Positions 3,256 to 57,546 of a DNA stretch of 64,000 nt are shown one piece after another. Location of the stretch: contig NC_134025.1 of assembly GCF_964204645.1 (NCBI RefSeq), positions 19,932,001-19,996,000 of the forward strand. The letters are read 5' to 3'. The position numbers and the translations under genes are program-made. Position 1 is the first letter of the stretch; each line of letters opens with the position of its first letter. Below the pieces are notes generated by a model. The model worked only from the letters and a program-made list of their open reading frames with translations. It had not been told where the DNA came from and did no database searches. The DNA is from Tubulanus polymorphus. Taxonomy: Eukaryota; Nemertea; Palaeonemertea; Tubulaniformes; Tubulanidae.

Positions 3256-5402
3256 TCAGTCGATTTCCATTTCGTGATGAATATTCAGCAGGGCTAAATT
3301 TGCCAGTCTGTTATCCGTCATGGTAGAACGAAGATAGGTTTTAGTGCGACGAAGGCAAGAAAACGAACGTTCAGCACTAGCACTCCCCACAGGTAATGTA
3401 CAACCGATTACAATTAGCCTGTGTATTCCAGGAAACTCTCATTCATCGGTACATTTTAAAATCTCGTACAGATTACTCGGCTTTTCGATGGATGGATCCA
3501 ACCACTTAGATTTCCACTGATGTAACTCGCTAAGTAATGAATTTGGAAATGTTAAGTCATCTTTCCAGAAAAGTAAACGTTCGCAAACACTTCTTAATCA
3601 AGTTCAACAATCACAGCAGGCACTAATGAAAACACTTCACTGCATGCACGTGTATCATTTGAAAATCTGTTCTTCATTTCATTGCTAACATGATCTATAA
3701 AAGGTATCATGATATTTATCTTGTAGTGCTCCTTCGGTGTTTGAGCCGGGGCATTAGAACGGTGTATTTGCTTCCTGACTGTACGCCTGACAGTTACTTC
3801 AGTGCCAACTTCTTCCGCTAATCGCACTGCTTCCTGATATACTAAATCAAATGACGAGTCGATTTCAACCCTCATTTTCTCGATGACACTAATCTTTGAA
3901 TCAATGAGACTATACGCAGCATAGATGTCAAGATCACTTTCTTGAATTTTTGAAGTCACAGACTGGAGATTAGACAGTACAATCTTCACAACAACAAAAG
4001 CAACAATAAATGGAAATGATCTTAAAGTGCTGAGAAGCCCTTGGGCTTTAACTCTGGTATCATTATCCCAGTTCCAGTTACCACTGTCTGCATATATATC
4101 CCGGTATTCATCAGGATGCAATATGCCCTCGAGACATTCGCATAATACTTTGAACATTTCACAGAAAACAGAAAAACAATTGTGACGTTCAACCCAACAC
4201 GTTTTGCACAATCCTGGTAATTTTGATTTCGCAAAATGTTCTCTTGCAAGATATCTTTCAAAAAAGCGTTGTCGTTTTGGAGAATTGTGCAGGAAGAGAA
4301 AACTTTCATTGATGGTTCCAATCATATTTCTAATATCTGATAATCTACAAGCTGCAGCTATTGCAAGATTTAACACATGGCTCCTACAGTGGGTAAATAG
4401 AGCTTTTGGTGCGACATTACGAATACGCCCTTGGACTCCAACAGCAGCGGAAGACATACAACTGGTGCCATCGTAGGCCTGACCGCGAGACTTGTTGACG
4501 TCAACACCATATTTTCTCAATGACGATAGAATTCCATTCGCAATACTGTCACCGGTTGTCCTTTCTAGATTGACAAAGTAAAAAAAAACTTCCTTGATTA
4601 CATCATTGTCTAAAAATCGTAGACAAACTGAAAGAACTTCTTGGTTGGCATACGTATCGGTTACCTCGTCAGCTATAATAGCAAACAAAGCATCAAGATG
4701 TTGCAGACATTTGGTTAATTTTTCTCGAATTTTAAGTCCAATGATATTAAGAATATCATTCTGTACAGTCTTTGAAGTATATTTTGCATTTCTTTTACCA
4801 GTTTCAAGATGTTCACTGAAGACTTTGTCGTGTTTGCCAAGTAGATCAAGAATGGCCAAGAAGTTTCCGCGATTAGAAGTAATAGACGTATGATCATCTC
4901 GATGACCTCGGAGCGGGATATTCTGCTTTCCACAGAAGATGACCGCTTCCACAACATTCCGTAGAATATGAATGTTTTTTTCGAAAATCTCTTTTGACTT
5001 TTCACTCATACAATAATCGACCGTTGATTCTGGTCTTTTCACAGAATCGTTCAAAAGAATAGCGTCCGACATAGCATTTTTATGAAAATCGGTTTTTTCG
5101 TGTTTATCTAAGATTCCGTCAGAGCCTTTCGCGCCGCCATAGTTTTTGAAAGCACAGGAAACTAACTGTCCAGTTTTAACGCGTCGATCTTTAGGAGGAA
5201 ACATAACGCAATACTTGCAGAGACCGCCCTGCAATGCTGGCGAATAGACTAACCATGGATAATCAGAAAGCCAACTTCTCTGGAATCTCAATGTAATATA
5301 TCGTTGTTTCGACGGCTTGTAGATCAATTGATGTTCAAATTCGTAGTTGTTTCCCAGTATGAAATGATTGTCCAAATAAGCAGCTTTCTCTACGTTATCC
5401 AT
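3256..5402 (-). pseudogene. hAT-family transposase (ZMYM1/DUF4371-like), broken
   Basis: The longest open part (5402 to 3594, 602 aa) begins with a TTF-type zinc-finger-like segment (WLVYSPALQGGLCKYCVMFP near residue 45). The catalytic-core words follow: IIADEVTDTYANQE, YDGTSCMSS and HCRSHVLNLA, as in DUF4371/ZMYM1-like hAT transposases. The frame closes at 3594, but coding similarity continues. A frameshift near 3590-3600 leads into another frame (LLFWKDDLTFPN). That frame has an in-frame TGA at 3439-3441 and then the hAT C-terminal dimerisation signature (LPVGSASAERSFS...LRST...RLANLALL) up to a stop at 3256. At least two lesions therefore separate the core from the dimerisation domain, and the element cannot supply its own enzyme from this copy. 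The start at 5402 is the first Met. A more 5' exon is possible but I did not find one. Confidence 0.85.
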
Positions 5403-6676
5403 TTTTTGTAGTACTTCAAATCTTTCTACAAGGGTTCCAACATCTTTGGCACCTTCATCTAAAAAGGAAATTATTGGTATTTAGTAGTATTTAATCATAT
5501 GTTTAATAATGGTTGCATGCGTTACTTTTTAGATTTGCATAGAATAGCTGATGTCATGCTATGACAAATATTTCGAATGTTAAGGTAAATTATACCTATC
5601 ATATCGCCGATTGAGTTGTTGTTCTCATCACCCTCCATTTCTTCATTGATGACATCATGTCTCTGACGATTCATCGTGGTCTAAAAAGTTGTCAGATTCA
5701 ACAACCACTGCTGCACCAGATCTACAGAATATAAAAATATTATAATACTTGTGTACCCCTGTCAGCATGCTTATCAAATTGAAACTGCCCTTTTTGTATC
5801 AATGCAAATATCACAGGAAGGTTTATGTGCCGATGAGCATATTTACCCTATTCGAGGTGCATGTTCCTCCCATGCTGCATCAATAAGTTCTACAGGTTCC
5901 GCATCGGGATGTACAATAACAGGTTCGACAGCCGTCACACCAGATCTACATAAAGAAATTTATAATAGGCTCTTATGCAATATCGTAATACCACATTTTC
6001 ACACGTCTACCACATTTTCAGTGCCCTTTTATAGATTCGAAAACATGGGTGAAAACTATGTGCCCCTATATCAGTATATATGGTGCAGGGCCCTTTTCTG
6101 AAATTTGGATCCGCAGGAAAAATTAGGTGCCCTCATCAAAATAAAGAACATTCACCCGTTCGGAATGAGAATGAACTATGTTATGAAAATAATGTGCCCC
6201 TGATAAAATTCTCATCGGAATCATAATCCATTCTAGTGCCGCCAAATACATCAGTTATGATGGGTGGACGAAGTTCTTACAGACTAGGCCTACTAGTAAC
6301 TAGTAGTAATATGGCCTTCGTTCGACGAACGAATTCTGTCGTGTTTTAACGTCAAAATTTCCATCTGGTCGCTATCTTTATCTGAACGAATCTGTAATTT
6401 TTGCTGTCTTCGACGCCGCCGCAACATTTTCCTGCTTTTTTCGTTTTTTCGATATCTTTCTTTTGCGGCATATTCAGAGAAAGTTAATAGAAAAATTTCT
6501 TATAACTTCAGCTAGCGAAAGGTCGCCATGTTGTGTACCGAAACGCGGCCCCAGACATAGACACCGGACAACGCGAGGCGCAAACAGCCGGCGCGGGAGC
6601 ACCGGATTTTTCAGCAGCGTGTTTTTTAAAAAGGGCACTTGTCCAAAAAGGGGTGGGTTCAAACCCAAGGAACCCA
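5403..6676. other. hAT element 5' region, no gene
   Basis: Non-coding part of the transposon between the transposase start and the right terminus. The short ORFs at 5751-6101 and 6463-6714 show no family features and are probably chance. Confidence 0.4.
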
Positions 6677-6990: not shown

Positions 6991-7234
6991 ACCCCAGTTT
7001 TTAATTTATTGCGATATTTTTTGTAGCATTTCAAATAATACTGTGTTTTGTAAGCAGGTTGAATGAAAGGTATAATCATTTGCTTGGGATCTGTTCGAAA
7101 TACACAAGGATTCAAATTGTACAGGTTCAAGATATGCTGTCAACAATTGATTGGATGATATGCCTACAGAATTACTTAAAATTTTCTATTTCATTTCCAT
7201 TTTAGAACTAGACGTTTCATTAGCTGCTTAAACA

Positions 7235-10200
7235 ATGCCAGTGTCAACAGCTGAGTCATCATTTTTGGAAATCCGACAGCGATACTGTGAAGCCACTCAG
7301 AATGGAAAGTTATCTTACACACATTATGCTAAAGGTTTGATCATTGGTGATGTAGGTGTCGGAAAATCTTGCGTGAAAAATACACTTATTGGTAAACCGA
7401 ATGTTGAAAATGAAGAAACGCATACATTTGGAGTAAAGCAGGATACAATTGAGACGTATTCCTCATCAAAAGTCTTTCACAAAGTTGAAGAATCTGAGCG
7501 TGAATTTTCTAAAGCTGCCGTATTTTTAGCTTTGTACAGTAAAGACTTCATTTTGGCAAAAGTCAATTCGGTAACGTCGGAACATTTGAAGAAAGGTTGT
7601 CAACTTATGGTATCATTCTTGTGTTTGTTAATGTGTGTTTGTATACATTGTGGAAGTACACTTAATTTCAGTTTTCTTTATGTATTCAGTATCATTGGAG
7701 CGTTGTCCATGAATTATATTTTAGATGTACCCTACAATTTGTACAGGTATGGTCAACATCTCTCTATTGTTTGCGTTGTTATGAAAGTCATTTGTGCAGA
7801 AGATTCAGTTTGGAGTCACAGTAATATTGCTACCAATTACAGTAGCGCAAAACTAGGTCTCTTAATTGTAGTAGTTGGAATTGTCATCAGTAGTTTGGTT
7901 ATCGGTATTAGTCACAAGTTCTCCTTCACATCAGGGATATGTTGCTATTTTATGGCAACAGGAGAATCAGGAATCTCAGTCAGCATATTCAATGATTATA
8001 ATACTATTGCTAAACTTATTATATGTATCGTGATACATTTTTTGATAGATTATTACGCGACATATTTTAGGCAATATTTCAAAAGCATTGAGGCCAGACA
8101 TGGCATCATACCGTGTTTATTATTTGCCATTTTCTACAAGTCAATGCCGGTGTTCGTAACGTGTGCCAGCTTCTCCATATTATTTTCATTAGGGATGAAA
8201 TTGAGTGAATATTTGTGTGATAGACAAAAATATATTGTTAAACGAGATATTGGACATACTATCCAATATGTAATTGGTGTTGAAATTGGGATTATTCTCA
8301 GTCAGTATCTTGATTGGCAACTGCATTTTTCGGTATTTCACACATTGCTTTCCTTGGCAATTTACATTTTTGTTGAATTATTTTTTTGCTATCAAAATCA
8401 ATTTGATGCCTACCCTGCAGATGTAGTAGAGCACCTACAAGAATGTGGCTACCAGTCATGGCCTGTTAAGGTGTGCTTGTTGGATTTTGCTGGTAGCGAG
8501 TTATTTCGGGATGCCAATCATTTGTTCATGGGAGAAAGTGCAATATATATGATTGTTTTATCTCTCCATGAAGCTATACTACAGCCGGAATACCAACTAA
8601 ATAGGGTAATTTACTGGTTGAATGTTGTTTTTGCCCACACTCATTACAGAAATGCTAAAGTCATTCTCATCGGTACGAACAAAAGTAGATGTATGAATGA
8701 TGAAATCAAAGGATTTGGTCTATATCTGAAGGATAATTTGAAAAAGAACTTCAAAGATTGTTTAGCTTTAAATAAAAACAGAAATTTTGTTCCATTGTTC
8801 GCGATTGATAATATGGAATCAATGGATACCGTTGGTTCTGACTTAGATGAACTTCATAATGCCATATGGAAGTATGCTAACGATAGAGAGTTTACACACC
8901 AAAATGTTCCTGTTCAGTGGGTCAAATTTAATGATTTGATCATTCACAAACGTAATTTGCGCAGAACTGGTGAAAGTGAGCATTTAGATTGCTGTATTAC
9001 CGATGTGAATGTGCTTTATCAAGAGGTTAAAGAATTATGTATTGTAAATGATGAGCCAGAATTTTATAAACTGTTAGAATTTTACATTAGTTGTGGTGAA
9101 ATATTTTATCGTATGTGTGATCCTCGGCTGTATAAATATGTAATCTTAGATCCACAGATTATCATGGATTGCACGGCCTGTCTTGCCGGTCAATACCTAA
9201 ACTCTATTCCGACGCATCTTCAATTGCACTGGGATCGTTTGGAACAAAAGGGCATCGCTTCACGTGAAATGTTGATGCATTTACTAAAAGGCATTCCCGG
9301 ACTGAGGGAGTACTATATCGCAATACTGCAGGGTTTAGATTTACTTGTACCAATCGAGAGTCAGATCGGTTTGTTGTTTAGCGAGTCCGACACCTATATC
9401 GTACCATTCAGACTACCTTTGCGTCTGACATCGTCGCGCTATAATGATGACGTCGAACAATTTTATTTCGATTTCGGACCATTCAATCCGCAAATGATCT
9501 TTCTGAATCTCATTGCCAAGTGCTTTCAGATGTCGAAGTTTGTTGCTGAACAAAAAGAACTGCGAGTATCTGACCATGACTGGACGAACAATTTGTACAA
9601 GGATTGTGTCGAGTTCTATTATGGTGACTTGTTTCATTATAAAATCGAAAATTTACAAAACTCCATCGATCGAAATATCTTTCTTGTCAGCGTTTGGAAA
9701 ATCGACCACTCTGCATCGATATTTTCATTGTATGGACTTCTCAATGGAATTATTCTGTCATTGTGCAAAAGGGATTTCCCATTCGTGTCGTATAGTGTTG
9801 GGGTGCTGTGCGATTGTGGTGACTATCACAAAGTTGAGCATCGCAATGATTATGGTCCGGTGAAATACATGCCAATTTCATTTCGTACTACCATCGAATA
9901 TAAGTGCAAGGGTGAAACCAAGATATATACCGAAAAAGATGCTCCACACGAGGTAGGTCAACTGATAGTTTAGTAAAGAAACGTGATTATAACATCAGTT
10001 GCAACAACAGGAATTATCTGGGTTTTTTACTCTACAATCTATTAATTCTACCATCCGGATATCCTGCTGGCTTCATAGTGTGTGGTATATTTATTTGGAT
10101 AATTATGAGATGAGTATTCAAATTAGATGTTTCGAATAGCCAGCTGTAGCCTGAGCCTTTGCCTGTACAAATAGAATGAATGCTATGGTTTTCAGATGAA

Positions 10201-11452
10201 AGGTTTTTTCGTCTTGCAACTAAGTATATAGAAAGCAAAATATCAGACCAAAGAAACCGATCAGCTAACCTGATTGGGTTAGTTATAGATATAGGCAGGT
10301 GTTCACATACTACTCCCAGGATTTTAGATAAAAAATTGTATTTCAAGATATTTCTGAAGTATTTGTTCTTGCCAGCAGCGGTGTTACTTTAAAACGCGAT
10401 TGCACATATAAATTGTTAACCACAGCACCACGGTTATTCCACCAGATGGTGTGGGGAGCACTCAGTCTTATGTTATCAAAATTAGTTTATTTTCAATGAA
10501 CTTTGAACTGAATTTTTAGGGAAGAATTTTCAAATGCGTAGATCCTCACAGGACCCACCAAATATACAATAAATTAATTCTTCTACTTCTATAACGCTAA
10601 TCCTTGAATATCGGTAAAGTTTTCATTTATTTATTGATCTATGTAAGAAAAAGTTCATTCAGTTCTCACTGAAATATAGAAGAAATCGAACGCGAAAGAC
10701 CGAGGTACTACTAACAAACTTGGTGTAAGTGGAATCCTCGGTTCCCACAGGATGTCATAGGCTCCCCATAATATTGAAGCAGAATGTGTTATGTCACATA
10801 TAACCTACAAATTGCTTCATTTCATGAAAAGCAAATACTATAGGCCGACTGTAGTGCCCCTGTGTTTGGGCTCTTGTTTGTTCTATCTCATGATCTATTG
10901 ATTCAATTAAATTGTGTTGAATTGAATTCATTAATTCAAATTATTGCAATTATTTAATTCCAGGAACTTATCAGAGACCAGGAAATCTCTACACATGGCA
11001 TCCATAGTACAGCATTCATCTCTTGTAGCTCAGAGGACCGCGCTTGGGCTCAGTGTGAACTATTGCCTGCTTTGCAGAACATCCTGATACCTCGCAAAGA
11101 AATCCAGTTCAGTACAACACACAGTCAGATAATGATCAGCTTTACGCCAAACGAAAGATCGCGTCTAAGTCAAGAAGCAAAAAATCAACAATTTATTGTC
11201 TCAAGTACCTGTATTCTAGTCATTATTAGTCAAAACTACTTGCAAAATTGCATTAATGAATTGCATTTCGCCATCAAGCATTGTATCCAACACAAGAAAC
11301 GATTGATACCAATTCTATTGGACCAGTGTGAATGCCCGCATGAGTTGAGAATTGTCAAACCGCTTCAGTATCCTTCGGATGAAGGTCAGAATGTTTTTAC
11401 CGAATTTTATTTGCCTCTGATAAAATTGTTCAAAGATATGTCTAAGTGTTAG
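7235..11452 (+). CDS. Membrane Roc-COR-TIR protein (Roc split by a TM bundle)
   Basis: Two coding exons, 7235-9952 and 10964-11452 (donor GAG|GTAGGT, acceptor TTCCAG|GAA, phase 0), give 1068 aa. Seen in order: a P-loop GDVGVGKS (residues 38-45); a strongly hydrophobic block at about residues 124-388 with some 8-9 membrane-spanning stretches; the G3-like DFAG at 417-420 followed by SELF; a G4-like TNKS near 481; a COR-like region at about 545-870 (ILDPQIIMDC, VPFRLPLRL); and a TIR domain in exon 2 (AFISCSSEDRAW, then ILVIISQNYL, NCINELHFAI, IPILLDQ). Family knowledge: Roc-COR proteins are GTPase-switch proteins, and TIR domains signal in innate immunity or cleave NAD+. Inference: a membrane-anchored GTPase-controlled TIR protein. 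The start codon has a good context (AACAATGC), and an acceptor-like TTTTAG at 7199-7204 suggests a 5' UTR exon. The membrane block loosely recalls XK-related proteins, but that is weak. The domains are confident, the exact architecture less so. Confidence 0.85.
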
Positions 11453-17626: not shown

Positions 17627-18706
17627 TTATTCATCTGGTTGTTCGCCCCTTTCGTCTAAATTAAAGTGGCTCTTTTGGATCATTTGAATCCACCCGATGA
17701 CCTTGTCGTCATCATCTTGTTTATCTTTGAGCGTTTCGGGAAGAATACGTTCATGTTTTCGGTTGTATTTTTGGTTCGTTGAAGTCTTTAGTTTATTAAC
17801 ACCGTTATTATCCGATATCACCGGCAATCGATCAGCTGAACCGGTCGTATCCTGGCGATCCATCAAAAAAGTAACAACCTTTTCCAACTTTGGTGCGTCG
17901 ACGTCGTCGCTAATTTCACGGAAAAACTGTTCAATGCCGTTTCCCTGGTCCATTTGCGGGTCATTATTTTCTGGGTTTTCGTCGCTTAGATTTTGCTGCT
18001 CATCAACTCTTGTTGCAAGTGCTGGCAGAGGTTTGTACGTTTTGATGCGATGCCGTTTCAATGTTCTACGCAAGGCCAGTCGACGAAGTTGGGGCAAGTA
18101 AGATTTATCTATATAAGATTCACCTACATCTGTCGAATAGACGCCATGTTTATGATGGCGAGCATTCTTGCTACAGTGGAAGAACGCATCTTTCTTAGCG
18201 GCAGCAATTTCTTTCTGGCAGCCGAATTGCAGTGACGTCACTTGTTTGCAGTCTTTTCGAGGTCGGCGAATAGAGAGAATTGTTTCGGGATCAGCTAAAT
18301 TTGATTTTGGTCGTGTTACTTTAATCGGGGATCTTTCCATTCCAATCTGCTGTAGATCTTTGATATCTAGACTTATACTGGTTCGGTCAGCTTTAAACAT
18401 GGGGATACACTTACCCATCGTAAAGATTGGAGCGTCTTTTGTTCCCTGTTTAAAAGTTGACAACGCTTGAAACACAGTCTTTACACGTTTGATTGCCTGT
18501 TTACGCTTTTCTCCGCCAGTATGTTGTTTTTCATCGTTCAATCTATACGAGATTTGACGTTCCTCTAGGATCTCGTTGGTAAGTCGAGCGTGAACGTGGC
18601 ACCGCAATGTTTCTATTTCGCGTAAATTCGATTTTAGCTGATTGTTCAGAATTTCGTTGGCCGACTTAGTAAAACTTGAAAACGATCCTAGTTTACGTCG
18701 TCCCAT
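17627..18706 (-). CDS. Intronless gene, unknown; paralogue of 20785 gene
   Basis: A 359-aa protein from one uninterrupted exon, starting MGRRKLGSFSSFTK. It is basic in the N-terminal half and acidic toward the end (DDDD near residue 330). It has no signal peptide or membrane segment. Residues about 18-80 look like a charged helix or coiled coil and contain NEILNNQL and LTNEILEERQISYRL. Both have counterparts in the divergent gene at 20785 (NELLKYRL and LTNDIFDERKEAYRL). A later LRRTLKRHRIK matches LRKVMNKAKHIK of the same gene in order. I do not recognise the family; a cytoskeletal or ciliary role would be speculation. A TATA-like stretch (TTTATATATAA on the minus strand) lies near 18857-18867, about 155 bases upstream of the start. 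Confidence 0.75.
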   Translation of the reverse strand: MGRRKLGSFSSFTKSANEILNNQLKSNLREIETLRCHVHARLTNEILEERQISYRLNDEKQHTGGEKRKQAIKRVKTVFQALSTFKQGTKDAPIFTMGKCIPMFKADRTSISLDIKDLQQIGMERSPIKVTRPKSNLADPETILSIRRPRKDCKQVTSLQFGCQKEIAAAKKDAFFHCSKNARHHKHGVYSTDVGESYIDKSYLPQLRRLALRRTLKRHRIKTYKPLPALATRVDEQQNLSDENPENNDPQMDQGNGIEQFFREISDDVDAPKLEKVVTFLMDRQDTTGSADRLPVISDNNGVNKLKTSTNQKYNRKHERILPETLKDKQDDDDKVIGWIQMIQKSHFNLDERGEQPDE

Positions 18707-20751
18707 AGTTAGTTGTTTATCAGCTGTGATATCGTTAGTCTGTAAATCGATATTCCATCATGTATAGATATTTTTTTTCCACCGAGGTGTCATGATATGC
18801 CTTCAATAGTAGACAGCACATTCGTAAACTCCTCCCCGGCAGTAATTTAGCGAATATTATATATAAAACTGTCATCATTCGTGAGAAATAGCTGTCGACA
18901 GTAAAATCCATAGATTATTTAGTTCAGGATATTAAGCGTTATTCAGTACAGTTCACACAATTGGTACAATTTTAATTTGACGAGATTTGATAAATTCGTG
19001 GGAAAGATATGTCATGGTTGAACTATCGATTGCGTTTTAATAGCATAGCATATCTTTATTCTTTAAAAGCTATCGTAGATATGTATATTGTTTCTATGGC
19101 AGAGAGAAAGAGTTTAATGTTCTCGCGCTCTCCATTTTCGCAGTTGAAAATTCCAGGATTCATAGCGGCCCTTAAAAGTCATGAAAAGTCCTTTATTGGG
19201 AATGGGTCAATTCGAGGCCTTGAATGTCATGAAATACTTATAGGCTCTAAAGTACTTAAATCATTGTCATGGTCCTTGAATGACATCGCCTCATCTCGCG
19301 ATTACAATTTGAAGCTTCTGATCACATATCATCTGGTGTTTCCGTATATCAGATTACCTTTTTTATGGATGGACCCAATGTGAATTAAAATTGGGTGATG
19401 AAAAGTCTTTGAATCGGGGGCAAAAATGTCCTTGAAATCCTTAAATGAAATTGGTCATGGGCACTATGAACCCTGCTGTTCACTCGCAGGTGAAATATTT
19501 AATCTGTAGAATCGTCCAATAAAAGGTCCACTAATTACCCTGGGTACAGCGGCATTTATCGCAATATGGATAGTGGTGTGTATAGAATGATATGGGTTCG
19601 ATATTCACAGGGATTGTTTTACATTCCGACAAGTGCGCATAGGGCACTTTCTTCGAAGGATTATTTTTGCAGTAATTGTCCCCAAAAGATCATCTCAGTT
19701 GATGAGACTCGGTCGGTCATTTTCGTTCCATATTTAGCGAAGCGATGGAGACGATTCGGCAATTTATCATTGGAATTACTGCACTAATCCCGCACGTTAC
19801 GAAGCACGAATCATACCTATATTTAATGAAGCATATCCTACATAGTTGATTGCCTATCATCGTAAGCTATTGGCTAAGATCAGTGCCGAGGACATTGGCT
19901 CCTAGGCGTATTACTAAATGACACATCGTCTAGCCTGATTATAGAGAGCCATCGATGACGATACGAGGATACATTGAAATGTCATTTTCTGATAGCGTCA
20001 TCAACACTCTATCTGCGATAAATCGAAAAGCGCTGTATACGTTTTCCGTTTGGTGACGCCATCGCTTTCATTCAGTCTCTGAAATGCCCGTGCATTCGTA
20101 ATTCAGTAGCGAAAGTAACGCATATCTTCGACATGCAAAGCACTCAAAAAGCTACCGGTCGCGAACAACTAACATCCATTAAACTACACAGTGATACGGC
20201 ATCGATACGGTTTACTCTGTTAAGCCATTGCAACAAGACTCGCCTCTCCGGTCGTTTTATGGCAATTTTCATTTCCCATGATTTATTAGTCTCAAGTATG
20301 CCAACTCTTTCACGATTTCTCATTATGTTTTGTTATAATATTTCTCGTCAGCCCGTTGGTTTTCTTCAAATAGCACCAAAGGCTTTTCGGCCCTCGAAGC
20401 TATTGTTCTCATGGGAATTGGATACATTGTTGGCAAGGACGACATGCTTTACGTTGGAACTCATGGGAACCTCTTCTTTGTCTTTGAGGGTATAAAATTA
20501 AAATCGATCCATTACAACAAAATCTGAACATTATGTTCGGTAATAAATATTCTGCGAGGTGTAGCTTGTTAATGAATTCAGCAAATAATTGCCGCTTATT
20601 GCATAAAAAGCCAGCGCAGTTAGCGACATTTTGCATTATTAAACGTAATTCAGCGAAGATAACGGCAATGTAACACTTATGTACCGGGTAATACTGGATT
20701 TATATGATCGATGACAACCTGTGAAAAAACTCCGCTTTTTGTCCGTGGATT
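18707..20751. other. Divergent intergenic region with a dispersed repeat
   Basis: This region separates the two divergent paralogues. Around 19170-19475 lies a repeat-like stretch with many variants of GTCCTTGAA/GTCATGAAA, ending in GGGCACTATGAACCCTG at 19457-19473. I associate that terminus with short dispersed repeats in invertebrates. ORFs at 19009-19383, 19566-19787 and 20133-20495 have no family features and are not called. Confidence 0.35.
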
Positions 20752-20760: not shown

Positions 20761-20784
20761 ATATTTACATGAACATACGTCAGG

Positions 20785-22098
20785 ATGATGGGTGAGGATA
20801 TATTTGGTGCTTTATTAAAAGCTCGGGACAAAAATGAACTGCTGAAGTATCGTTTGACAGAGGAGATAAGATTTCTCGATAGACAAAAGAAACAATCAAA
20901 ACATATGTTGACAAATGATATATTCGACGAAAGGAAAGAAGCTTATCGTCTGCAAAGAGAGGTGACCGATATTGAATTACGCGACCAGGAAAAGAAACTA
21001 GCGGCCGAGGCGAAAAAACGAAAGGGCTGGGAAGCATTACGCCGGAGAAAAACATTTTTAGTCGCATTAGCTGGACTTGCAGAGAAAAAAGAATCGAAAG
21101 CTGGAATAAAGGGTACCCAAATGGCGTTACTGAGTCCAGAAAAGGAATATGTTCAGAGAAATCGAACAAGGTCGGCCAATGAGTGGAAGGATAAACTACT
21201 GCCCGAATTGGAACTGAATCGTAGTAAGTCTTTAGTTGTACTGTCGAGCCATTGGGTTGGAGACCCGAGAGCTATTGACTCTGTAAGGCGCGAGCGAAAA
21301 ACCCCAGAAGAAATGGGTACGTACACTCGTTTTTTACAAGGGTTTCGTCACGCGGCCAGGCGATCGATTCGTACGGCTTTCTGCAGTCGACAAAGATGCC
21401 GCGGTGCATACGAGGGTGACCCCGGCTTCACTGACGTCAGTCACATGACCTTGCGTAAAGTCATGAACAAAGCAAAACATATCAAACTAAATGAGGAGAT
21501 CCAACCGGAAGCTCTACAAAATGTCGATATACCCACCCCAGCTGAAGGTAAAACAGCTGGTGGTGTAATAAAATCGTTGCTTACAGACACTCCTTTCGAA
21601 GAGAAACAAGGGCTGCCAAAATCCCGAGAGAATACCACATTCTCAAACGATTCTGGCATCGAAGCAGACGCTTCGAGTGTCGGTGGACTTTCTCGATCAC
21701 ACACGTTACCACAAATATTAGAAGAATCAGAAACCTCCGGAAAAGATAACGAACTTGATAATAAATCAAGTTTACCCTCTCGACCTTTATCTACATCATC
21801 AGCAATGGGTGCAGCTGGGCTCTACTCGCAACTAAGTAAAAGCAAACCAAAAGCGAATCATACGAACAAAACTGGTTTCGGTGTCAATTTAAAGCCTATC
21901 AACTACGATAATATTACAAGTCCGATTGCTGAGTTACGCCGGATGAGTACGAACTTTTTGAACCGGGAAGACGTTATAACTGTCGATGTAAACAAATCCG
22001 TCAGAATTCATAAAACCGTTAATTTCAACGCTGACGCAGTTGAACATAAGAAACATTTGGCTCGTCGAAGGATCATTTTACCCGATATGATATTCTAA
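20785..22098 (+). CDS. Intronless gene, unknown; paralogue of 17627 gene
   Basis: A 437-aa single-exon protein starting MMGEDIFGALLKARDKNELL. The N-terminal ~100 residues are strongly charged and heptad-like (LTEEIRFLDRQKKQSKHMLT, then EVTDIELRDQEKKLAAEAKK), suggesting a coiled coil. The middle is basic (RQRCRGAYEGD), and the C-terminal half is Ser/Pro-rich and probably disordered (SRSHTLPQILEESE, SSLPSRPLSTSS). No signal peptide or membrane segment. It shares NE(I/L)L, LTN(E/D)I-(D/E)ER-YRL and LR(K/R)-IK in the same order with the divergent gene at 17627-18706, so the two look like an old duplicate pair. The function is not recognisable from sequence. Confidence 0.8.
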   Translation: MMGEDIFGALLKARDKNELLKYRLTEEIRFLDRQKKQSKHMLTNDIFDERKEAYRLQREVTDIELRDQEKKLAAEAKKRKGWEALRRRKTFLVALAGLAEKKESKAGIKGTQMALLSPEKEYVQRNRTRSANEWKDKLLPELELNRSKSLVVLSSHWVGDPRAIDSVRRERKTPEEMGTYTRFLQGFRHAARRSIRTAFCSRQRCRGAYEGDPGFTDVSHMTLRKVMNKAKHIKLNEEIQPEALQNVDIPTPAEGKTAGGVIKSLLTDTPFEEKQGLPKSRENTTFSNDSGIEADASSVGGLSRSHTLPQILEESETSGKDNELDNKSSLPSRPLSTSSAMGAAGLYSQLSKSKPKANHTNKTGFGVNLKPINYDNITSPIAELRRMSTNFLNREDVITVDVNKSVRIHKTVNFNADAVEHKKHLARRRIILPDMIF

Positions 22099-26537: not shown

Positions 26538-29500
26538 ATGAACTGTGGAACGGAAAGTGGTTTATCGATGTTCTTTTTCATATTAGTAAGTAACGTAGAT
26601 TTTCATTATATTCGTTGAATTATGTACCTTCTATTGAACGCCATGAATGCAATTCATAAAAATTTCCATTACCTATTCACCTCGGATGTATTTTGAAAAC
26701 AGTTTCTTTTTGTAGAATTATCAAATTTACAATTCAAATTCACTCAACCCCTCCCCAAACGAAAGCGATGCTGCCAGGTTAATCATAGTTGATTTATTAC
26801 AGTGGAACCTTGTTTATCGAATCTTGTGGGCTTAAGTGAAATTGTCGTATTAAACGGGTTTCGTATTATCCATAGCTTGATTTATATGAATATCTGGGCC
26901 ATGCGGGAAATCATCGTACTCGACGGGTTTCGTCATAAACGAAGTCGTATCAACGAGGTTCAACGGTATCAATTAAGTATAAATCTATCTATCCCTTTTC
27001 GTGGAATTTAGAAATCAGAAAAATACTAACTAGCATCGTTATCTTTATTTCAGGTCGCTATTTTCTCATCTCCGTCATCTGTGATCGCAGGTAGGAAACT
27101 TTTCAATATTCGCACACTTAAAATTATCGTTTAGCGAAACATGAAAACAACAACAGTATGAGCATTTCGTGTTCTTGTTGTGCTGTTTTATCGGGTCAGT
27201 AATGCAATTCTGGTCTATTACTTCCGAATCCGAAGAAAACAGAAAATTGTAATTATCCATTTGCCTGATTGATCGTTGCTTTTATAAGGCGTAGATTTTT
27301 AAGAGTTCAGTAAACACGGTTAGTCTTGGCTTTGGTGCGTTGAAATGTCGGAATTTCCTCGAGTATACGGAAAGCAAACAACAGAAAAGTATCAACGTCG
27401 TTCTGCATTCTAAGATATCATATTTGGATTTACTTTTTGCTATTACAGTTCTACAAAGGGTTGTTGCTCTAGTATGTGGGATTTCCGTGTTGGGCTGTGA
27501 TAAAAAGCTTAAAAATTTCCGCATTCATTGAATAATTTCTAAAACATCAGAAGAAACATTTATTCTTGCATAAATAATAACGATAGCGCAATGATTTTTT
27601 AAACATTTTTTCATCCAAGCAAAAATACGGCACGGGTCTGAGTGGGCACGTCATTCGATATATCTATATATGTACATCAGTTTTTTTTGCTACAAATCAT
27701 TTAATCAACCGAGCTATGCTGCTTGGCCTTCTTGGAATCACTTGACACATTCTCTCACATATCAATGTGAATGATCTATCAAAAACGGGTATTGCTGTAA
27801 AAAGCTCTTGCGAACACTTTTCAGAGTGCAATTCGAACTCCTCTAGAGCGTACTACGACCGTTTACGATGATATATTATTTAGTAGAACGTCGTCATCGG
27901 CGGTAGTGCGATTTCAAAGTGGGAATCAAATCTAATTTGAAACTCAATTTGACTCCGTTTCATATATACTTAGCAGGTTATTGCTTCTGCTCGAACCGTG
28001 GCAAAATAATTCCATATGCTTTTTTCACGGTATCAAGGTCGCGGATATTTTCACAACTTTTCTGTGTTAACGAAAACACCGCATTTTTATTCAAGGAATT
28101 CTAATTGTGTTGATTTTGTTTTAAGTATGCTGATGCGGTAATCTTCGTGGCGATTAAGTTTATACTAGCAATTTATACTAGCAATTTAACTCCGGCATGA
28201 ATAGTTCGTTAAGTCACCGACCGAAGAAGAATTCGTTTCTATCCGACTTTTAAATGCTTACGATAACTACAGAAATATTTACGTTATCCCGTCTGTTAAT
28301 TAATGCATCATAACCACGCTCGTAAAAACGACATTGTCTAAAAATATAGGATAATTGAAATATTTCCGTATCTAATACACCTGCCTATTCGTTCTGAATT
28401 CATGTGTGAATAATTATTCATCAGATACGAGTGAAATCTAAGTGCGATGTACAATAAATCTTCGCCCTGGCCATCTATATGATATGTAGGCCTACAACTG
28501 ATTTTATCGATACCAAATTGTTGAAATAATACATAGATCCTGAAATCATACTTCGATTGATGACTGAATTGCAATGTTTCATGGTAACAGTGAGTTGGAA
28601 TTTTATCGGCAACGCTTAATTGTACTTACGTAGCCTTATTCTGGAGTTAGTGCTAGCATTCTTCAAATTTTAGTTTCATTCTGAAAATTAGCAGTGGTTG
28701 AAAATGTTAGAATGAAAAGCGTATCCTACCGGTGGCAAAGGAAATTGAATACTCGGATTTGTTAACTTGAACAAAGACATTAAACAGATCGAAGGACAGA
28801 GAATTGACCAGATAATTGCAATTCTTGAAAAAAAGTGTCAACGATGACAAAAACTGCACGTTTTACTCGTCCATTCGAATCCGCAATATGTATGTATATA
28901 CTCGGTAGATTGGATAAGAAATATATTCGAGAGTTTATCATTCACCCGAATCGAATTGATGTGGTATAGGCTATAGGCGAATTTTTGAATAGAAGAAAAT
29001 TGATAGTATTTTTGCTTTGTAAAAATCTGGGTCCAATGGATCAAGTGAAAATTATTTAGATAAAGACGTATACGTATTGTACGAGTTACCATAAGCAATG
29101 TCTATATGGTGACTATGGTAACTCGTACTATATGATTATAAAATATAATTTGTATAAGTAAGTGGTTTACCGAATAGCCTATGTTTATGTTTTTGCAGGC
29201 GATAGTGACCACGGATGTAAAGTCGGTTTGGCTGACATTGTATTCATGTTAGACGATTCATCGAGCATCTGGCCAAACAATTTCACGCTGCAGAAGAATT
29301 TCGTAAACCAAATGATAAATTCATTTGATATCGCTCCCGACGCTACACATGTTGCAGTCGTCACGTTCAGTACGCGCGCACGTCTTCAATTCAGACTCAA
29401 TGAAATGATGGAGAAAGACAAACTGAGGGAGGCCGTTTTCAGAATCCGACAACGAGGTGGCGACACTAACACCGGAGACGCGCTTAATTTAGCGAGGACC

Positions 29501-32080
29501 TACGCCTTCAGCCGTTCTCAGGGTGGACGACCAGGGAAAGTGCCTCAAATTGGAATCGTGATCACCGACGGCAAATCGCAAGTAATGCGCCAAACCACCA
29601 GAGAAGCACGGTTAGCGAAAGAGCAGGGAATTATTCTGTTCGCAGTTGGTATCGGAGAACACGTCAGTCAAAAAGAGTTACGATCAATCGCTTCAGGTGA
29701 CGATTTTATATTTGAAAATAATGACTACGCCACTCTGTCAAAAATAGAGACACAACTTCAACAAAAAGCGTGCGAAAGTAAGTATTGAAAAAGAACTGCG
29801 AATGATCTTGCAAAATCAAGTCTCTTATCGATATTCATATTGCTTTCAGTTCCAATACCAACAGAGGTCAAAGTAGGAAAGAACTGCCGGAACAAGGAAC
29901 TTGACCTTATATTCGCTGTAGACGTAGCCAAACCGATCTATAAGATCGACTACTTCAAGACACTTGCCTTTGTACAAAGTGTCATGTATTCTATGGATCT
30001 TGGCGACGACAAGGGCAAAGTTAGTGTAATAGCGTTCGGGAATCACGTAGAACCTGCTTATCAACTCGGTGAACACAATTCTTATTCCAAAAACTCCAAA
30101 TCATTGTTCAACATTAAGCAGATGGATGGACCGTCAGATTTTGCCAGTGTCCTACAATATGCCAGATCTAGAGGTTTCAATGAGCGATATGGCGCGCGCA
30201 AAAGTGCGGCCCAGGTTCTTGTACTGGTAACCGATGGCAAGTCAGCAGACTTTGCAGAAACTGTCCGACAAGCGGAAAGAACAAAAACGGCCCGCATAAG
30301 AATATTTGTGGTGGGAATCGGCCCCGATGTAAACACTGGAGAACTGGAAGCTATAGCATCTATGCCGGCTAGATACCATGTGTATAAGGTTGATAACGTT
30401 GATCAGCTGGCAAAAGTCAAAACTTCAATATCCAGGAAAATATGTAGTGTATCAGGTCCAGTACAACTCGAAGGTAGGTCGACCGAGTATTCTAGTCGAA
30501 CAATCTTTAGACTGTCACTTAAGATGTGCTGCATTGAAATTTCTATGAATATATATTGCAGCTTGTGGTCGAAGAAAGGGAGCTGACATAGCTTTTGTAA
30601 TGAACACCGAGAATGCTATTGCTAAAGACGTTGTCAAAACGAGAGCTTTCATGAAGAACATCACTACCAGTTTCAACATGGGCAAAAACAAAATCAAAGT
30701 GGCCGCGCTACCAACAAAATGTAACTCAGTGCCTGGTTTCAGACTCAACGAAGGCGGCGAAGACAAGAAAGTTGCGCTAGAAAAGATCGGAGCCGATACT
30801 AACAAGGACGCTCTTACTGCATTGTTGACCGACGTTCGCACAGACGCATTCGAAGAGAAAAACGGTGCTCGAAAGGGTGTGAAGAAAATTGCCATCGTCG
30901 TTACAGACAATAAACCAGAAAATCCACGTAAAACTCTATTAGAAGCGATGAAAACGAAGATGTCAGATGTGGAAATATTCGTGATAGGGGTCGGCAAGGA
31001 GGTCGATTCGAAGCTGCTGAAAAATATAGCATCCACGCCGACTGAACGCCATGTAGCATTTGTACCCAATTACTCTACATTACACGAAACTAAAGAAATG
31101 TTAGTCGACAACGTATGCGAAGGTAAGATCGATATGTTTTCTTGAAAAAAATGACTCCATTTTAGGTATCTTAGGAATCTTTACATCCATTCTTAATGGG
31201 AATTCGGTACGCTTAAAATCACTTTGTGGGATATAAGGGGAATATAAATATGTAACTCGAACTCGAACCAATTATTAACTCCCAACTTGAAACAAACTAG
31301 ATGCTAGTTGTATAGACTGATCCCAGCAACAAAGTTGTGAGTTACCATTTACATTTCGACTCGTCGAGATCAAATTCACAATGTTCTTACTTTTTGGGTG
31401 CATTTCTCGAAAGGCTATGAGGTCATTTTAGTTGGAAATGGTGGATATGATAATTATCGGAAGATTTTTGGCATTTTTTTTTGCTTTGACGTCGAAGAAA
31501 GATATCCCGAAGAAAAATATGGTATTTTGAACACATATCAGAAAGTGACAACCTGAAGAAGGTTGTCAATAAATCAATATGAAAAAGTGCAATTTCAGCA
31601 TTACGTAAACCATGATTTGAAATGAATTTGAAGATTTGTCGGAGTACTCGAAAACCTCACTGAGTTTTTTTGCAAAATAAGTCATTCACTTGCGCAGTCG
31701 TCGTACCTGTAAACAGCAATGAAATACGGCGAGATAGAATGTATGTCGATTCATACATAAACCCAATACATGTTGCAAATTTAAGAATGACATCAACTGT
31801 GCCTCGCCTTGTGTAATTAGCAGTTCCAAAAGTATAGTGAGGATTATCATACAATTTTGAGAACAATCATCCGTTTTTTCGTTGGTTTCTGGTTAGACCT
31901 ACGAGCAATCATCCCAAAATCTTGAGATGATTGCTCGTAGGCTAGACATAGTATATAGCCGACACCGTGGTCTTCACGTACGTTACATCAAGATCGCAAA
32001 GTCCGTCATGAAGCGAGGCTTCTTTGATTGATACTATGTGATTATTGATTTCTTTTACAGAACTGGAAAATGGGTCTTAA
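26538..32080 (+). CDS. Secreted protein with three VWA domains
   Basis: Six exons (26538-26585, 27054-27090, 29199-29777, 29850-30473, 30562-31122, 32061-32080) join in frame to 622 aa. Exons 1-2 encode a signal peptide (FFFILVAIFSSPSSVIA). Exons 3, 4 and 5 each encode one VWA domain of about 190 aa opened and closed by a Cys (GCKVG..KACE, NCRNK..KICS, ACGRR..NVCE). The last exon adds only ELENGS. VWA1 has an intact metal site (DDSSS, TNTGDA, ITDGKS). VWA2 has lost the DxSxS serines (DVAKP) and the Thr loop. VWA3 has NTENA in place of DxSxS. The introns flanking the domains are all phase 1, so each domain is a swappable module. Family: extracellular-matrix VWA proteins (matrilin, collagen VI A-domain type). 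Inference: matrix or secreted adhesion protein in which only the first domain coordinates metal. AATAAA-type signals occur downstream of 32440. Confidence 0.9.
27091..29198. other. VWA gene intron 2, no features
   Basis: A 2.1-kb phase-1 intron, GTAGGA donor and TTTTTGCAG acceptor. I see no gene or clear repeat apart from a doubled TTTATACTAGCAA word near 28158-28185. Confidence 0.6.
31898..31941. repeat. 16-bp perfect hairpin in VWA gene intron 5
   Basis: CCTACGAGCAATCATC (31898-31913) is followed after 12 bases by its exact reverse complement (31926-31941). It lies within the last intron, about 120 bases before the acceptor. It may be a stem-loop or a remnant of a foldback element. Confidence 0.85.
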
Positions 32081-36891: not shown

Positions 36892-38046
36892 GTTTTGAGT
36901 TTATTAGGAACAAAACCGGATTTGAACGATCTGTTGAAAATGTGGCATAATGGAGTCTCGATTTCTGGTGATGACGTATTTGATGATTTTCATGGTTTAA
37001 CCACCAGTACCAGCTGTGTTAGAGGGGCTCGCACTGAATCTATAATTTCAGCTTCGACTATTGGAAATAGAAAAGGTTTGAGAGGTTTTGATTGGGAAAG
37101 AATTGTCGAAAATCTTCGAATTGTCTTTTAAATAATCTCGTTTATGATTTTCCAAGTGTTTATCATGATATTCTTCTGGTTTAAAAGATTTATTTATAGT
37201 AGTAATGTTTCTCAGCTGTTTTAAGTATACCATGAGGTTTATTTTTGTAATTTAGGTATTTATTCTTATACCTATTGGAATTACTTTTCTGAAGAATATC
37301 TTTATAGAAGAATGTTTTTTTTAATGTAATGGCAGAACTATTTTTCTATCATTACAAGGTTCCAGGTAGTGGGAACGTCTCAAAAAATACAAACCTCGGA
37401 ACAAAGTTTAGATTGCCAATATTGCTAGAATTTAATTCCCAACTGATGACATACGTCGCCTGAAACCGAATAAGTTTCAGAACGCTAGGTTTTTGAATCG
37501 GAGTTTAACCTGTCATATTTGAATTTTAAGTGGAGATGATAATGATTGTAGCTCCCTAAAAACCGTCCTAAAATACTAAGATATTTTGATGGAAAGCTAG
37601 ATACGTATCTAACGTACGATGTGCCCACTACAGCGTTATGCGCGACTTTTGCCAGTTTTACAGTTTATCTTTAATTTCATTACTATGGCTTTTAAGCTAT
37701 TTAACGCTTGGCCAGACTGATATGCGTACGTTCCCTGCTCTGCAATTTCGTTCACCGTTTAACTAATAGCCGTCCGAAAATTGCATTCATATATATTTTA
37801 AACGATTCACCATACGCTGGCGATCTATTCTGTTATAATGTGAAAAATCGTTATTTCAAAAATTTGGCAAGCGAATGGGTAAACGAATGACGTCCTTTCA
37901 AAATCAGCAAATCAATGCACAAACGTTAAACATAATGCCGTAGTATCGAGTATCGAGTACATAAGTCTTTCCAGGTATCATTTGTTAAATTGCATCTATT
38001 AGCTCTGCTAACAAGACTATAGTATATTCCAGTTCGCACCATATCG

Positions 38047-39093
38047 ATGTTTAATCTACCGGTACGTGATTCATCAAATCGCCGTTACACATTTTCCTTA
38101 GCGAAAAAAAACACGAACACAACGATGAATTCATCCCAGTGCCCGATAGACGAGATACAAGTATTCAAACACTACGTGATAGTATATGGCGTCGGTGCAA
38201 TCTGCGTCTTGGGTATATGTTTGAACATCTTCGGGATTTTCGTTTTTCGAAAAATGACGGAGAGTGGACAAGCTATCTATCTCCTCACACTACTATCAAT
38301 AGCCGACACAGTTTATCTGCTAAACATTTTTCTCGATAGTCCGGTTCGACGTCTCATTTACCAAATAATCCACGGTGACAAATTATTTCGTAGGAAAGAC
38401 TACGGTGTATTTCCGATCTGGAACTGGTTCCGCATTGCTGCTTACAAGTCGACTGTTACAATTCGCAATTGGGTTGTCCTTCTGTCAGCAGTTGTTCGAT
38501 GTTTGCACATTTTGTTTCCGCTATGGTCCCGTCGAAACATTGATCGGAAATTTGTGAATTTATGTACGGCGATAATAGCGATCGTGTCGGCGGTAATATA
38601 TATACCTCGTTATTTCGGCGGTCGCGTTGTCCCGTTTAAGTGTCTGGGATCTTCAATGTCGAGTCCAACTTATCCAAAATTTGTGAAAGGAAAAGCAATG
38701 GATTTGAGCTCAACATGGATTTATTTGATAGTAACAGTAAATGCACCTATGATTATTCTTATGCTCGCAAACACGATTTTGCTGTGGTCCGTCAGTCGTT
38801 CGGTGAAAAATAGGAAATCGATGACGTCATCTAATACCGAAATAAATGTTAACACAAGAGCCACTCAACTTGTGATCATAGCTACTCTTATATATATAGT
38901 TTGCGAGTCACCAACAATCATTTCAAGAATATTTAATTATTTCATTAAATACGAATCCACAATTACGATGAGGAAAATGTTTGTCCTCTTAGACAACCTG
39001 ACTCCGATCGACTCAGCTATCAATTTTGTTATCTATATTATTGCCAGTAAAATATTCAGAAAAACCGCGTATAAAATACTGTTTGCCAAATAA
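38047..39093 (+). CDS. Rhodopsin-type GPCR, copy A
   Basis: A single-exon 348-aa seven-helix receptor. Helices lie at about residues 43-66, 76-97, 130-155, 170-188, 222-248, 272-297 and 312-335. TM2 keeps the Asp of LSIADTVYLL (D87). The TM6 CxxP is CESP (286-289). TM7 has NFVIY (326-330) in place of NPxxY. At the end of TM3 the D/ERY motif is VRC (150-152). ECL2 has C199, but I find no Cys at the start of TM3, so the usual disulfide may be absent or use C32. N-glycosylation sites NTT and NSS lie before TM1. Overall it resembles peptide-type (FMRFamide-receptor-like) invertebrate receptors; the ligand is unknown. Translation could start at Met27 (38125, AACGATGA) instead of Met1. It is convergent with the SLC6 copy. 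Confidence 0.85.
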   Translation: MFNLPVRDSSNRRYTFSLAKKNTNTTMNSSQCPIDEIQVFKHYVIVYGVGAICVLGICLNIFGIFVFRKMTESGQAIYLLTLLSIADTVYLLNIFLDSPVRRLIYQIIHGDKLFRRKDYGVFPIWNWFRIAAYKSTVTIRNWVVLLSAVVRCLHILFPLWSRRNIDRKFVNLCTAIIAIVSAVIYIPRYFGGRVVPFKCLGSSMSSPTYPKFVKGKAMDLSSTWIYLIVTVNAPMIILMLANTILLWSVSRSVKNRKSMTSSNTEINVNTRATQLVIIATLIYIVCESPTIISRIFNYFIKYESTITMRKMFVLLDNLTPIDSAINFVIYIIASKIFRKTAYKILFAK

Positions 39094-45373: not shown

Positions 45374-46522
45374 GTTTTGAGTTTATTAGGAACAAAACCG
45401 GATTGGAACGACCTGTTGAAAATGTGGCATAATGGAGTCACGATTTCTGGTAATGACGTATTTGATGATTTTCATGGTTAGACCATCATAGTACCAGCTG
45501 TGTTGGAGGGGCTCGCAATGAATCTATAATTTCAGCTTCGACTATTGGAAATAGAAAAGGTTTGAGAGGTTTTGATTGGGAAAGAATTGTCGAAAATCTT
45601 CGAATTGTCTTTTAATTAATCTCGTTTATGATTTTCCAAGTGTTTATTATGTTATTCTTCTGGTTTAAAAGATTTTTTATAGTAGTAATGTTTCTCAGCT
45701 GTTTTAAGCATACTATGAGGTTTGTTTTTGTAATTTAGGTATTTATTCTTATCCCTATTGGAATTCCTTTTTTAAGTATATCTTTATAGAAGTATGTTTT
45801 TTTAAATGTAATGGCAGAACTATTTTTCTATCATACAAGGTTCCAGGTAGTGGGACCGTCTCAAAAAAATTCAAACCTCGGAACAAAGTTTAGATTGCCA
45901 ATATTGCTTGAATTTAATTCCCAACTGATGACTTACGTTGCCTGAAACCGAATACGTCTCCGAACGCTACGTTGTTTGAATCGGACTTTAACCTGTCATA
46001 TTTGAATTTTAAGTGTAGATGATAATGATTGTAGCTCCCTAAAAAACATTCTAAAAGACTAAAATATTTTGATGGAAGACTAGATACGTATCTAATGCAC
46101 GATGTGCCTACTACAGCGTTATGCGCGACTTTTGCCAGTTTTACAGTTTGTCTTTAATTTCATTACTATGGCTTTTAAGCTATTTAACGCTTGGCTAGAC
46201 TGATATGCGTACGTTTCCTGCTCTGCAATTTCGTTCACCGTTTAACTAATAGCCGTCCGAAAATTGCATTCATATATATTTTAAACGATTCACCATACGC
46301 TGGCGATCTATTCTGTTATAATGTGAAAAATCGTTATTTCAAAAATTTGGCAAACGAATGGGTAAACGAATGACGTCCTTTCAAAATCAGCAAATCAATG
46401 CTCAAACGTTAAACATAATGCCCGAGTATCGAGTACATACGTCTTTCCAGGTATTATTTGTTAAATTGCATCTATTAGCTCTGCTAACAAGACTATAGTA
46501 TATTCCAGTTCGCACCATATCG

Positions 46523-55228: not shown

Positions 55229-56092
55229 GTAAGGAAGAGATTTTGCATATCATTCATGCATAAAACCACAATATACAATCTCGATATGAATGTGTAAAAA
55301 TTGTTTCACTAGGCTATCGTATGGTTTTTCGAAATACGTGTATCCTGTAAAGATTATGTGGTTTTCAAAATGTGTAGCCTATCCTGAAAAAATCTTCGTT
55401 TCCAAACACGTTTCACGAAAGAACCTTTATCACACATATACGACACCAAATTCCAACTCCAAATACCGCAAATTAAGGCAAAAATCGGTTTTCTATTTTT
55501 ATGACTACAAATACTGAAAAGTAGCGGTGACGGATGTATATAATATTATTGTAGAAATCTGAAATTTGCGGTAACTATGGAAATGCTCGAAAGTACACCG
55601 ATAGATAATGATGTTCCTTTGTATATACCTCTCGTCGAGGTGATGAGTGTAAATTAATTTCATTCATTTCAATTAAACACGTAACTGGAAGTTAACAATA
55701 AAAAGAAAAAAGAAATTAATTTCAAAATTTCATTTCATTGCTCTAACTGCACTACAAGCACGCTTCAGACGTGTCTTACAGTCGTTGTATTGCCCAATTA
55801 CAAATAGTTTTTTAAACGATATCTCGAGAAATTTATTTTTCTATTCCCACCGAATGGGATCCCGATGTTTAGAACGCATTAACCTCAATGAAAACTGTGT
55901 TACATTAAAATCATATCACTTAGAATAAAGATTAGGTCTTGATATGGTATATATGATGTATCGATACATTGATAGTTCAAATAGATCGGCTAAGATGGAA
56001 GGTAGAAGGTTGTGTAAATGACAATATACAATATGAAAATTTGACAATATGAAGTTTCAGTATATGTATATGTTTCAGTATATGTTTCGGTA
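55229..56092. other. Intergenic, no gene supported
   Basis: AT-rich DNA with no convincing ORF or repeat. The ORF at 55290-55517 has no family features. Confidence 0.4.
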
Positions 56093-56391
56093 TATGTCTT
56101 TTCATACCAGAGGTCGAGAGGTCGAGCTCATTCTCACTAACCCGCCCCTCTCAACCTCTGATATGAAAAGACATATACCCTATTACTCTAATAATATTCA
56201 TATAAATGAACATTATTTATATGAAAATCATATATATGAAGATCAATTATATATTAATTTTAAAAGTGTGAGTAAGGTGTGAGAAATAATTTGTATTTTA
56301 ACATTGAATATTTATATTTGAATGCGTTAGATTTATTTTAATAAAAGTTTTGTTATAAAAGTGAAGAAAGAAGAAGAAGAACCGAAATTCA

Positions 56392-56984: not shown

Positions 56985-57420
<436 letters not shown>

Positions 57421-57546
57421 TATTTTTATAGTAGTATATAAGATAAAGATTTATTCTTTATGTACTAAAAGTACTAAAGACATAAAGAAAGGGGCGAGTG
57501 AGTGAAAATGAGCTCGACCTCTCGACCTCTCGTATGAAAAGACATA

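Follow-up and report, generated by a model that had tools for sequence, protein, structure and literature searches.

A Roco-TIR gene family of the nemertean Tubulanus polymorphus with a Roc domain probably split by a multi-pass membrane bundle

Introduction

Roco proteins such as LRRK2, MFHAS1 and the Roco protein of C. tepidum carry the Roc motifs G1 to G3 in order, with a COR region directly after them. The length of switch I varies much among Rocos (PMC6337361), and a whole-word search of the available text of that review finds 'transmembrane', 'insertion' and 'TIR' absent. Invertebrates are known to combine Roc-COR with TIR: the ROCO-TIR proteins of Aplysia are described as putative Toll-like receptors (TLRs) and adaptors in a paper that also charts the membrane segments of its putative TLRs (PMC9334734), and a further study reports ROCO-TIR proteins in sea anemones and mentions a Neuralized-containing form for oyster and centipede (PMC5094078). 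Brown algal ROCO proteins have Roc domains of up to 467 amino acids with inserted sequence (PMC11378527), and most Ectocarpus ROCOs have a C-terminal region resembling either other ROCOs or transmembrane proteins (PMC4104024). A membrane ROCO-TIR protein may exist in Aplysia. TLRs themselves are membrane proteins that carry a TIR domain.

KAP NTPases form another NTPase class. Kidins220/ARMS and PifA are KAP NTPases with membrane segments within the P-loop NTPase domain, judging by the title of Aravind et al. (2004) as cited in PMC4632323, and Kidins220 has four membrane helices (PMC4632323).

Here we describe a gene located in a window of 64,000 nucleotides of the T. polymorphus genome (contig NC_134025.1, positions 19,932,001 to 19,996,000), which together with two paralogs forms a three-gene family. 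Like Roco proteins, the family has Roc motifs G1–G3 in order and a profile match to the Roc domain of LRRK2, and a weakly matched COR-like region comes directly after Roc; unlike in Roco proteins, Roc is enlarged by about 300 residues, in which ten helices are modelled, and has a degenerate G4, and Pfam scans of the three proteins list neither LRR nor kinase domains. It shares the combination of Roc-COR and TIR with the invertebrate ROCO-TIR proteins. Brown algal ROCOs differ from it in having LRRs in front, and in the available text neither membrane helices inside Roc nor TIR are mentioned for them. As in TLRs, a membrane protein carries TIR, but there are about ten helices instead of one, no LRR, and Roc-COR before TIR, and the similarity of the TIR domain to TLRs in PDB is not significant. 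The likeness to KAP NTPases, membrane helices inserted inside a P-loop domain, is an analogy of layout and not membership: there are about ten helices compared to the four of Kidins220, the domain is Roc-COR accompanied by TIR, and, with E values of up to 10 allowed, Pfam listed no KAP NTPase match for any of the three proteins (most matches above 0.1 are removed by the filters of HMMER). The original prediction knew of no described protein with such a layout, and we likewise found none in the Roco literature surveyed, mostly at title level and with animal protein databases outside the scope of the survey.

Results

The coordinates of the gene are collected in Table 1. As originally predicted, the first 2.7 kb form a single open, in-frame exon of 906 codons, which lies within a plus-strand frame open from 7232 to 9973 (913 codons). 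An in-frame TAA at 7229-7231 lies just before the ATG at 7235, and frame 1 of the opposite strand of 7235-9952 contains many stops. The P-loop GDVGVGKS and the G3 motif DFAG are located where they had been placed, with 373 residues from the P-loop lysine to the G3 aspartate (about 370 had been claimed). COR- and TIR-like regions had also been proposed to follow. The TIR domain was borne out, although it lies on a second exon beyond 7235..9952; the COR-A match is weak and falls below the curated cut-off. Judging from the predicted splice sites, exon 1 would be spliced to the TIR exon, giving a protein of about 1068 residues with the order Roc N-half, hydrophobic block, Roc C-half, COR-like region, TIR.

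Table 1. Features of the Roco-TIR gene, with positions counted from the first letter of the window
Feature	Position	Strand	Remarks
Exon 1: Roc N-half, membrane block, Roc C-half, COR-like region	7235..9952	+	906 codons; predicted phase-0 end, donor GAG/GTAGGT (slash marks the exon end)
Roc N-half (beta1, P-loop, alpha1, switch I/beta2; residues 33-78)	7331..7468	+	Pfam Roc 3-45 at 35-78; weak LRRK2 piece, 9 bits
G1 / P-loop GDVGVGKS (residues 38-45)	7346..7369	+	G38, D39, G41, V42, G43 and K44 invariant in 3/3 copies
G2 candidate T64-F65-G66	7424..7432	+	Invariant in 3/3 copies; T and G aligned to those of T-E-G in L021 and T-D-G in L004
Membrane block, ten modelled helices	7598..8389	+	Hydropathy averaged over three paralogs, ten-helix model, low-confidence AlphaFold2 helices
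Roc C-half (beta3/G3 to Roc end; residues 409-545)	8459..8869	+	Pfam Roc 56-117 at 411-482; LRRK2 match
G3 DFAG (residues 417-420)	8483..8494	+	D417 and G420 invariant in 3/3 copies
Degenerate G4 TNKS (residues 481-484)	8675..8686	+	Aligns with THLD (LRRK2) and with THAD, THAD, TKLD (L004, L010, L011)
COR-A-like region (residues 595-724)	9017..9406	+	Pfam COR-A E 0.0025, below curated cut-off; match in PF16095 genome search, E 0.028
Rest of exon 1, probably COR-B	9407..9952	+	Residues 546-861 36-43% identical between paralogs
Predicted phase-0 intron before TIR, 1011 bp	9953..10963	+	Rough site scores: donor 9.3, acceptor 10.3; same place and phase predicted in L002 and L003
TIR exon, terminal stop codon	10964..11452	+	Pfam TIR_2 E 4.7e-11, matched ~11015-11371; TLR10 best in PDB, E 0.05, not significant

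The host genome (267.8 Mb, 77 contigs) contains a let-7-like match (51.1 bits, slightly under the 53.5 cut-off) and a bantam match that exceeds its cut-off (62.9 versus 61), which fits a protostome, let-7 being a marker of bilaterians and bantam of protostomes; a COX1 search of it gave no match. When this genome was searched with the protein, three loci reached E 0.001 or better: the window gene and two full-length paralogs, L002 (contig C5, 33% identity) and L003 (contig C3, 31%). With L002 as the query, the same three loci were recovered together with two weak, short matches (E 0.014 and 0.089). Both paralogs keep the layout of P-loop, hydrophobic block, G3 and COR-like region in one open frame, and in all three genes the TIR exon follows a predicted phase-0 intron (1011 bp in the window gene, 522 bp in L002 and 74 bp in L003). 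Since two diverged paralogs share the same arrangement, the layout is real; and since the order of the parts, the block and the pre-TIR intron recur in both, an assembly fault or a retained intron is unlikely. Pairwise identity between the copies is 31-42% up to residue 95, 8-36% in the 25-residue linker before the block, 19-34% in the block, 37-61% in the Roc C-half and 36-43% over residues 546-861. Despite an overall identity of 29-31%, the P-loop lysine, T64, and the aspartate and glycine of G3 are invariant in the three copies.

The Pfam Roc model exceeds its 27-bit cut-off in all three proteins (34.4 bits in the window protein, 36.7 and 33.8 in the paralogs), each time over two stretches, counted at E up to 10. 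Taken alone, the N-half and the C-half of the window protein match with E 0.0021 and 0.00035, each below the cut-off; the residues given for the C-half in Table 1 are those matched in the whole protein. A profile built from the three paralogs aligned to the Roc domain of LRRK2 in two collinear pieces (profile 41-83 to chain 15-58 and profile 447-535 to chain 78-160; best E 1e-6 for the whole), with a gap between them of 20 residues in LRRK2 versus about 360 here. Taken separately, the N-terminal piece of the LRRK2 match is weak, at 9 bits and with an E of 2.9 of its own, and the reading as a single Roc domain consequently rests on the order of the pieces and on Pfam and LRRK2 together. From the two collinear matches it follows that the block would sit in the interswitch (beta2-beta3) loop of one G domain; in Ras-fold terms, the position after switch I/beta2 and before beta3 is the interswitch turn. 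The motifs G1, G2 and G3 are in order, with K44, T64, D417 and G420 invariant, and T64 is probably the switch I threonine. Taken together, these matches make it very probable that the two halves constitute a single Roc domain, interrupted by a membrane bundle at the interswitch.

The nucleotide-binding motifs are not all intact. The aspartate of G4, (N/T)KxD, is replaced by S, A and A in the three copies (TNKS, TFKA and THRA), and L021, another Roco of this genome, has THKN in place of the motifs listed for the other Rocos in Table 1. We do not take this loss to exclude Roco membership, because G4-G5 variation among Rocos is noted in the available text of the Roco review (PMC6337361). Nucleotide binding is likely, since the P-loop lysine and the G3 aspartate are invariant, but the loss of the G4 aspartate in all three copies speaks against guanine-specific switching. 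COR-A is matched in the right place in all three proteins (E 0.0025, 0.00059 and 0.003), each time below the 35.3-bit cut-off, and TIR_2 lies above its 28-bit cut-off in all three TIR exons (43.7, 33.3 and 38.8 bits).

The block (residues 121-388) has a mean Kyte-Doolittle hydropathy of +0.89, compared to -0.21 for the remainder of the exon, and hydropathy averaged over the three paralogs shows about ten peaks. Helices were modelled at residues 122-140, 145-163, 176-194, 207-225, 233-251, 257-275, 290-308, 310-328, 338-356 and 367-385; helix 5, the weakest, was placed by hand between two peaks, and the ten-helix count alone was scored. With both ends inside, the model fits the positive-inside rule in all three copies (K+R in inside/outside loops 9/1, 10/3 and 10/5). 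The block of the window protein holds two N-X-S/T sequons, that of L002 another two and that of L003 none; three of these four fall in loops modelled as outside, and the fourth, N144, lies where helix 2 begins on the outer face. AlphaFold2 run without an alignment, with a mean pLDDT of only 35.4 for the whole of exon 1 and 38.7 for residues 1-545, gave at this low confidence ten helices of at least 10 residues in the region from 116 to 386, of which two are short. When the three blocks were scanned by a stricter greedy procedure, the helix counts were 6, 8 and 7. The hydrophobic multi-helix block of the original prediction thus stands, with a helix count that differs from the eight or nine given there. 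An even number is needed for both Roc halves to be able to meet on one side of the membrane, and in the ten-helix model both would be cytosolic.

The sequence of the block has changed much between the paralogs and its hydropathy profile has been kept: the profiles agree with r of 0.63, 0.56 and 0.73, values equalled by 0/232, 4/234 and 0/257 circular shifts. Searched alone against Pfam, the blocks of the window protein and L003 matched no family and that of L002 matched one (E 0.31, a phage coat family); the whole L002 protein matched two membrane families, only at E 2 and 6. Against PDB the best match of the block was at E 2.4, and that of the whole profile was a sugar efflux transporter at E 0.6-0.8. 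The L002 block, searched against the genome at E up to 10, recovered only itself and L003 and missed the window block, so the reach of this search is close relatives. Within the range of these Pfam, PDB and genome searches, neither an established membrane family nor duplication of a separate gene accounts for the block, and no relative emerged that would indicate what it senses. In a pattern search of viral and prokaryote contigs, with other animals outside its scope, no relative was confirmed among 61 viral and 54 genome_contigs stretches.

The block is open and in frame in all three copies. Splice sites were scored with rough site tables within residues 60-125 and 385-416 or their counterparts, and no strong in-frame splice pair was found at the block. 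The best donors there score 3.9 (window gene), 5.8 (L002) and 2.7 (L003) and the best acceptors 5.5, -6.6 and 3.6, while by the same rough score the TIR introns of the three genes have donors of 7.3-12.8 and acceptors of 7.7-10.3. The phases of the top pairs disagree in two of the three genes; in L002 they agree, but the sole acceptor is the one that scores -6.6. As had been argued from the single open exon, the block does not look like a retained intron: the open frames, the conserved hydropathy and the lack of a strong in-frame splice pair all indicate that it is most likely coding. A retained intron or a gene-model artefact was judged unlikely on the same open frames and splice scores.

The claim that in known Roc domains these motifs lie only tens of residues apart is not quite accurate, as a comparison with other Rocos of the same genome shows. 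From the P-loop lysine to G3 there are 42 residues in L004 and L011 and 80 in L010, and 141-172 in L021, depending on one splice choice. None of these four spacers contains a membrane-like stretch (highest 19-residue mean 0.36, 0.38, -0.05 and, for L021, 0.28-0.76, versus 2.52-2.94 in the three-gene family), and by eye no hydrophobic block is present at the spacers of L022, L023 and L024. L004 also matches the Roc C-half of the family. L021 has a Neuralized domain, a Roc domain, a COR-A match above the cut-off and many introns, and TIR exons lie downstream of it in L025. The exons from Neuralized through Roc and COR to TIR follow one another on contig C2 (~30233850-30244520, +), and L021 and L025 are probably one gene. 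The Roc spacer of L021 is long, hydrophilic and partly poly-alanine where the window family has the membrane bundle, and it differs from the family also in its many introns and in the Neuralized domain in front. It has in common with the three-gene family a G4 without aspartate and an AIEN-like G5 motif (AIEN in L021; AIDN, AIEN and TLEN in the three copies), and its motif IPLKW corresponds to VPVQW, IPLKW and IPVKW. The simplest history, as far as these sequences go, is that a Roco with a long interswitch loop gained a membrane bundle before the three copies diverged. Separately, the intron-rich L024 (contig C5:23124000-23133900, -) shows by eye ankyrin-like, LRR, Roc, COR and kinase stretches, and is perhaps the LRRK gene of this animal.

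Several other features lie in the window. About 1.8 kb before the Roco gene, a 628-aa open frame at 3594-5480 (-) contains DUF4371, which we take to be typical of hAT-like transposon proteins. Long frames at 17627-18757 (-, 376 aa) and 20773-22098 (+, 441 aa) match no Pfam family at E up to 0.01. Consecutive von Willebrand A frames occupy 29162-31145 (+), two confirmed by Pfam and the third (30549-31145) assigned by eye. Two near-identical frames of Srw-type GPCRs at 38026-39090 and 46502-47566 (+), each of 355 aa by eye and about 8.5 kb apart, represent a recent local duplication. The frame at 59353-59877 (+) matches the sodium:neurotransmitter symporter family, as an SLC6-like exon, and the G+C content of 56001-58000 is unusually low (0.221, versus 0.312-0.419 in the other 2-kb steps).

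Discussion

Collectively, we consider it fairly probable that these proteins are polytopic Roco-TIR membrane switches, analogous to KAP NTPases without being KAP NTPases. With somewhat less than even confidence, we propose a sensor-to-switch mechanism for them. One Roc G domain would fold on the cytosolic face from residues ~33-78 and 409-545, with the chain leaving it at the interswitch beta2-beta3 turn, crossing the membrane about ten times and returning. The bundle would sense a membrane-side cue, whether a ligand, a lipid or an ion, and its movement would pull on the interswitch, changing the nucleotide pocket that lies among the P-loop and the two switches. The change in the pocket would alter COR-mediated dimerisation, upon which the TIR domains would meet or part, the paired domains then signalling as in Toll-like pathways. 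In an Arf-like GTPase, interswitch hairpins are partner-contact surfaces (PMC10908827). In a bacterial Roco the nucleotide-free and GDP-bound states favour dimers and the GTP-bound state favours monomers (PMC5714945); because GTP favours monomers in that case, the direction of the COR-TIR response is not one that can be guessed. The first helix is joined to Roc by a linker of about 43 residues and the last by one of about 23, and such linkers could make the coupling of the bundle to Roc a loose one. More speculative, and in our view rather doubtful, is the idea that receptor, G-protein switch and TIR effector are united in one chain whose ten-helix bundle, built into the interswitch, would set the nucleotide state without an exchange factor, and which would derive from a Roco that carried TIR and whose interswitch loop was long beforehand.

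The main rival to the membrane switch is a membrane anchor joined to a retired GTPase: the block would only place a Roc-COR scaffold, switching would be lost, and clustering would drive TIR. This would agree with the loss of the G4 aspartate in the three copies and in L021, and with the block being among the least conserved parts (19-34% identity versus 37-61% in the Roc C-half), yet an inactive domain need not keep the P-loop lysine, T64 and the G3 aspartate and glycine invariant at 29-31% overall identity, and ten helices exceed the need of an anchor; we regard it as unlikely, though the most serious of the alternatives. In another alternative the protein is a channel or transporter, its Roc domain acting as the gate and TIR forming a regulatory tail; it would be loosely like FeoB, a GTPase domain fused to a polytopic transporter. 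The size of the bundle and the few block residues conserved in the three copies, such as G348, E350, G352 and W361, would suit it, but Pfam lists no transporter family above chance and the best PDB match of the block is at E 2.4, making it improbable.

Least probable of all is that the block is optional and spliced out to give a compact, soluble Roc, or that the N-terminal P-loop belongs to a separate domain. A weak in-phase splice pair does exist in the window gene (donor 3.9, acceptor 2.0 by the rough score), but the site scores at the block lie below those of the TIR introns, the top pairs are out of phase in two of the three genes, and the hydropathy pattern of the block is conserved between the paralogs. 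A separate P-loop domain was rejected: there is no second G3, the ~76 residues from the P-loop to the first helix are too few for a complete G domain, and the collinear Roc matches contradict it as well.

Regulation of Roco proteins at membranes is a central question for LRRK2, the Parkinson's protein. If the family is indeed a polytopic Roco-TIR membrane switch, it would be a natural Roco with a membrane domain in the switch region, in which one could ask directly whether the interswitch is an allosteric input of Roc, and animal innate immunity would gain a TIR protein that is multi-pass and linked to Roc. The layout suggests that accommodating an entire membrane bundle between nucleotide-binding motifs is not restricted to KAP-type NTPases and is open to a G domain as well.
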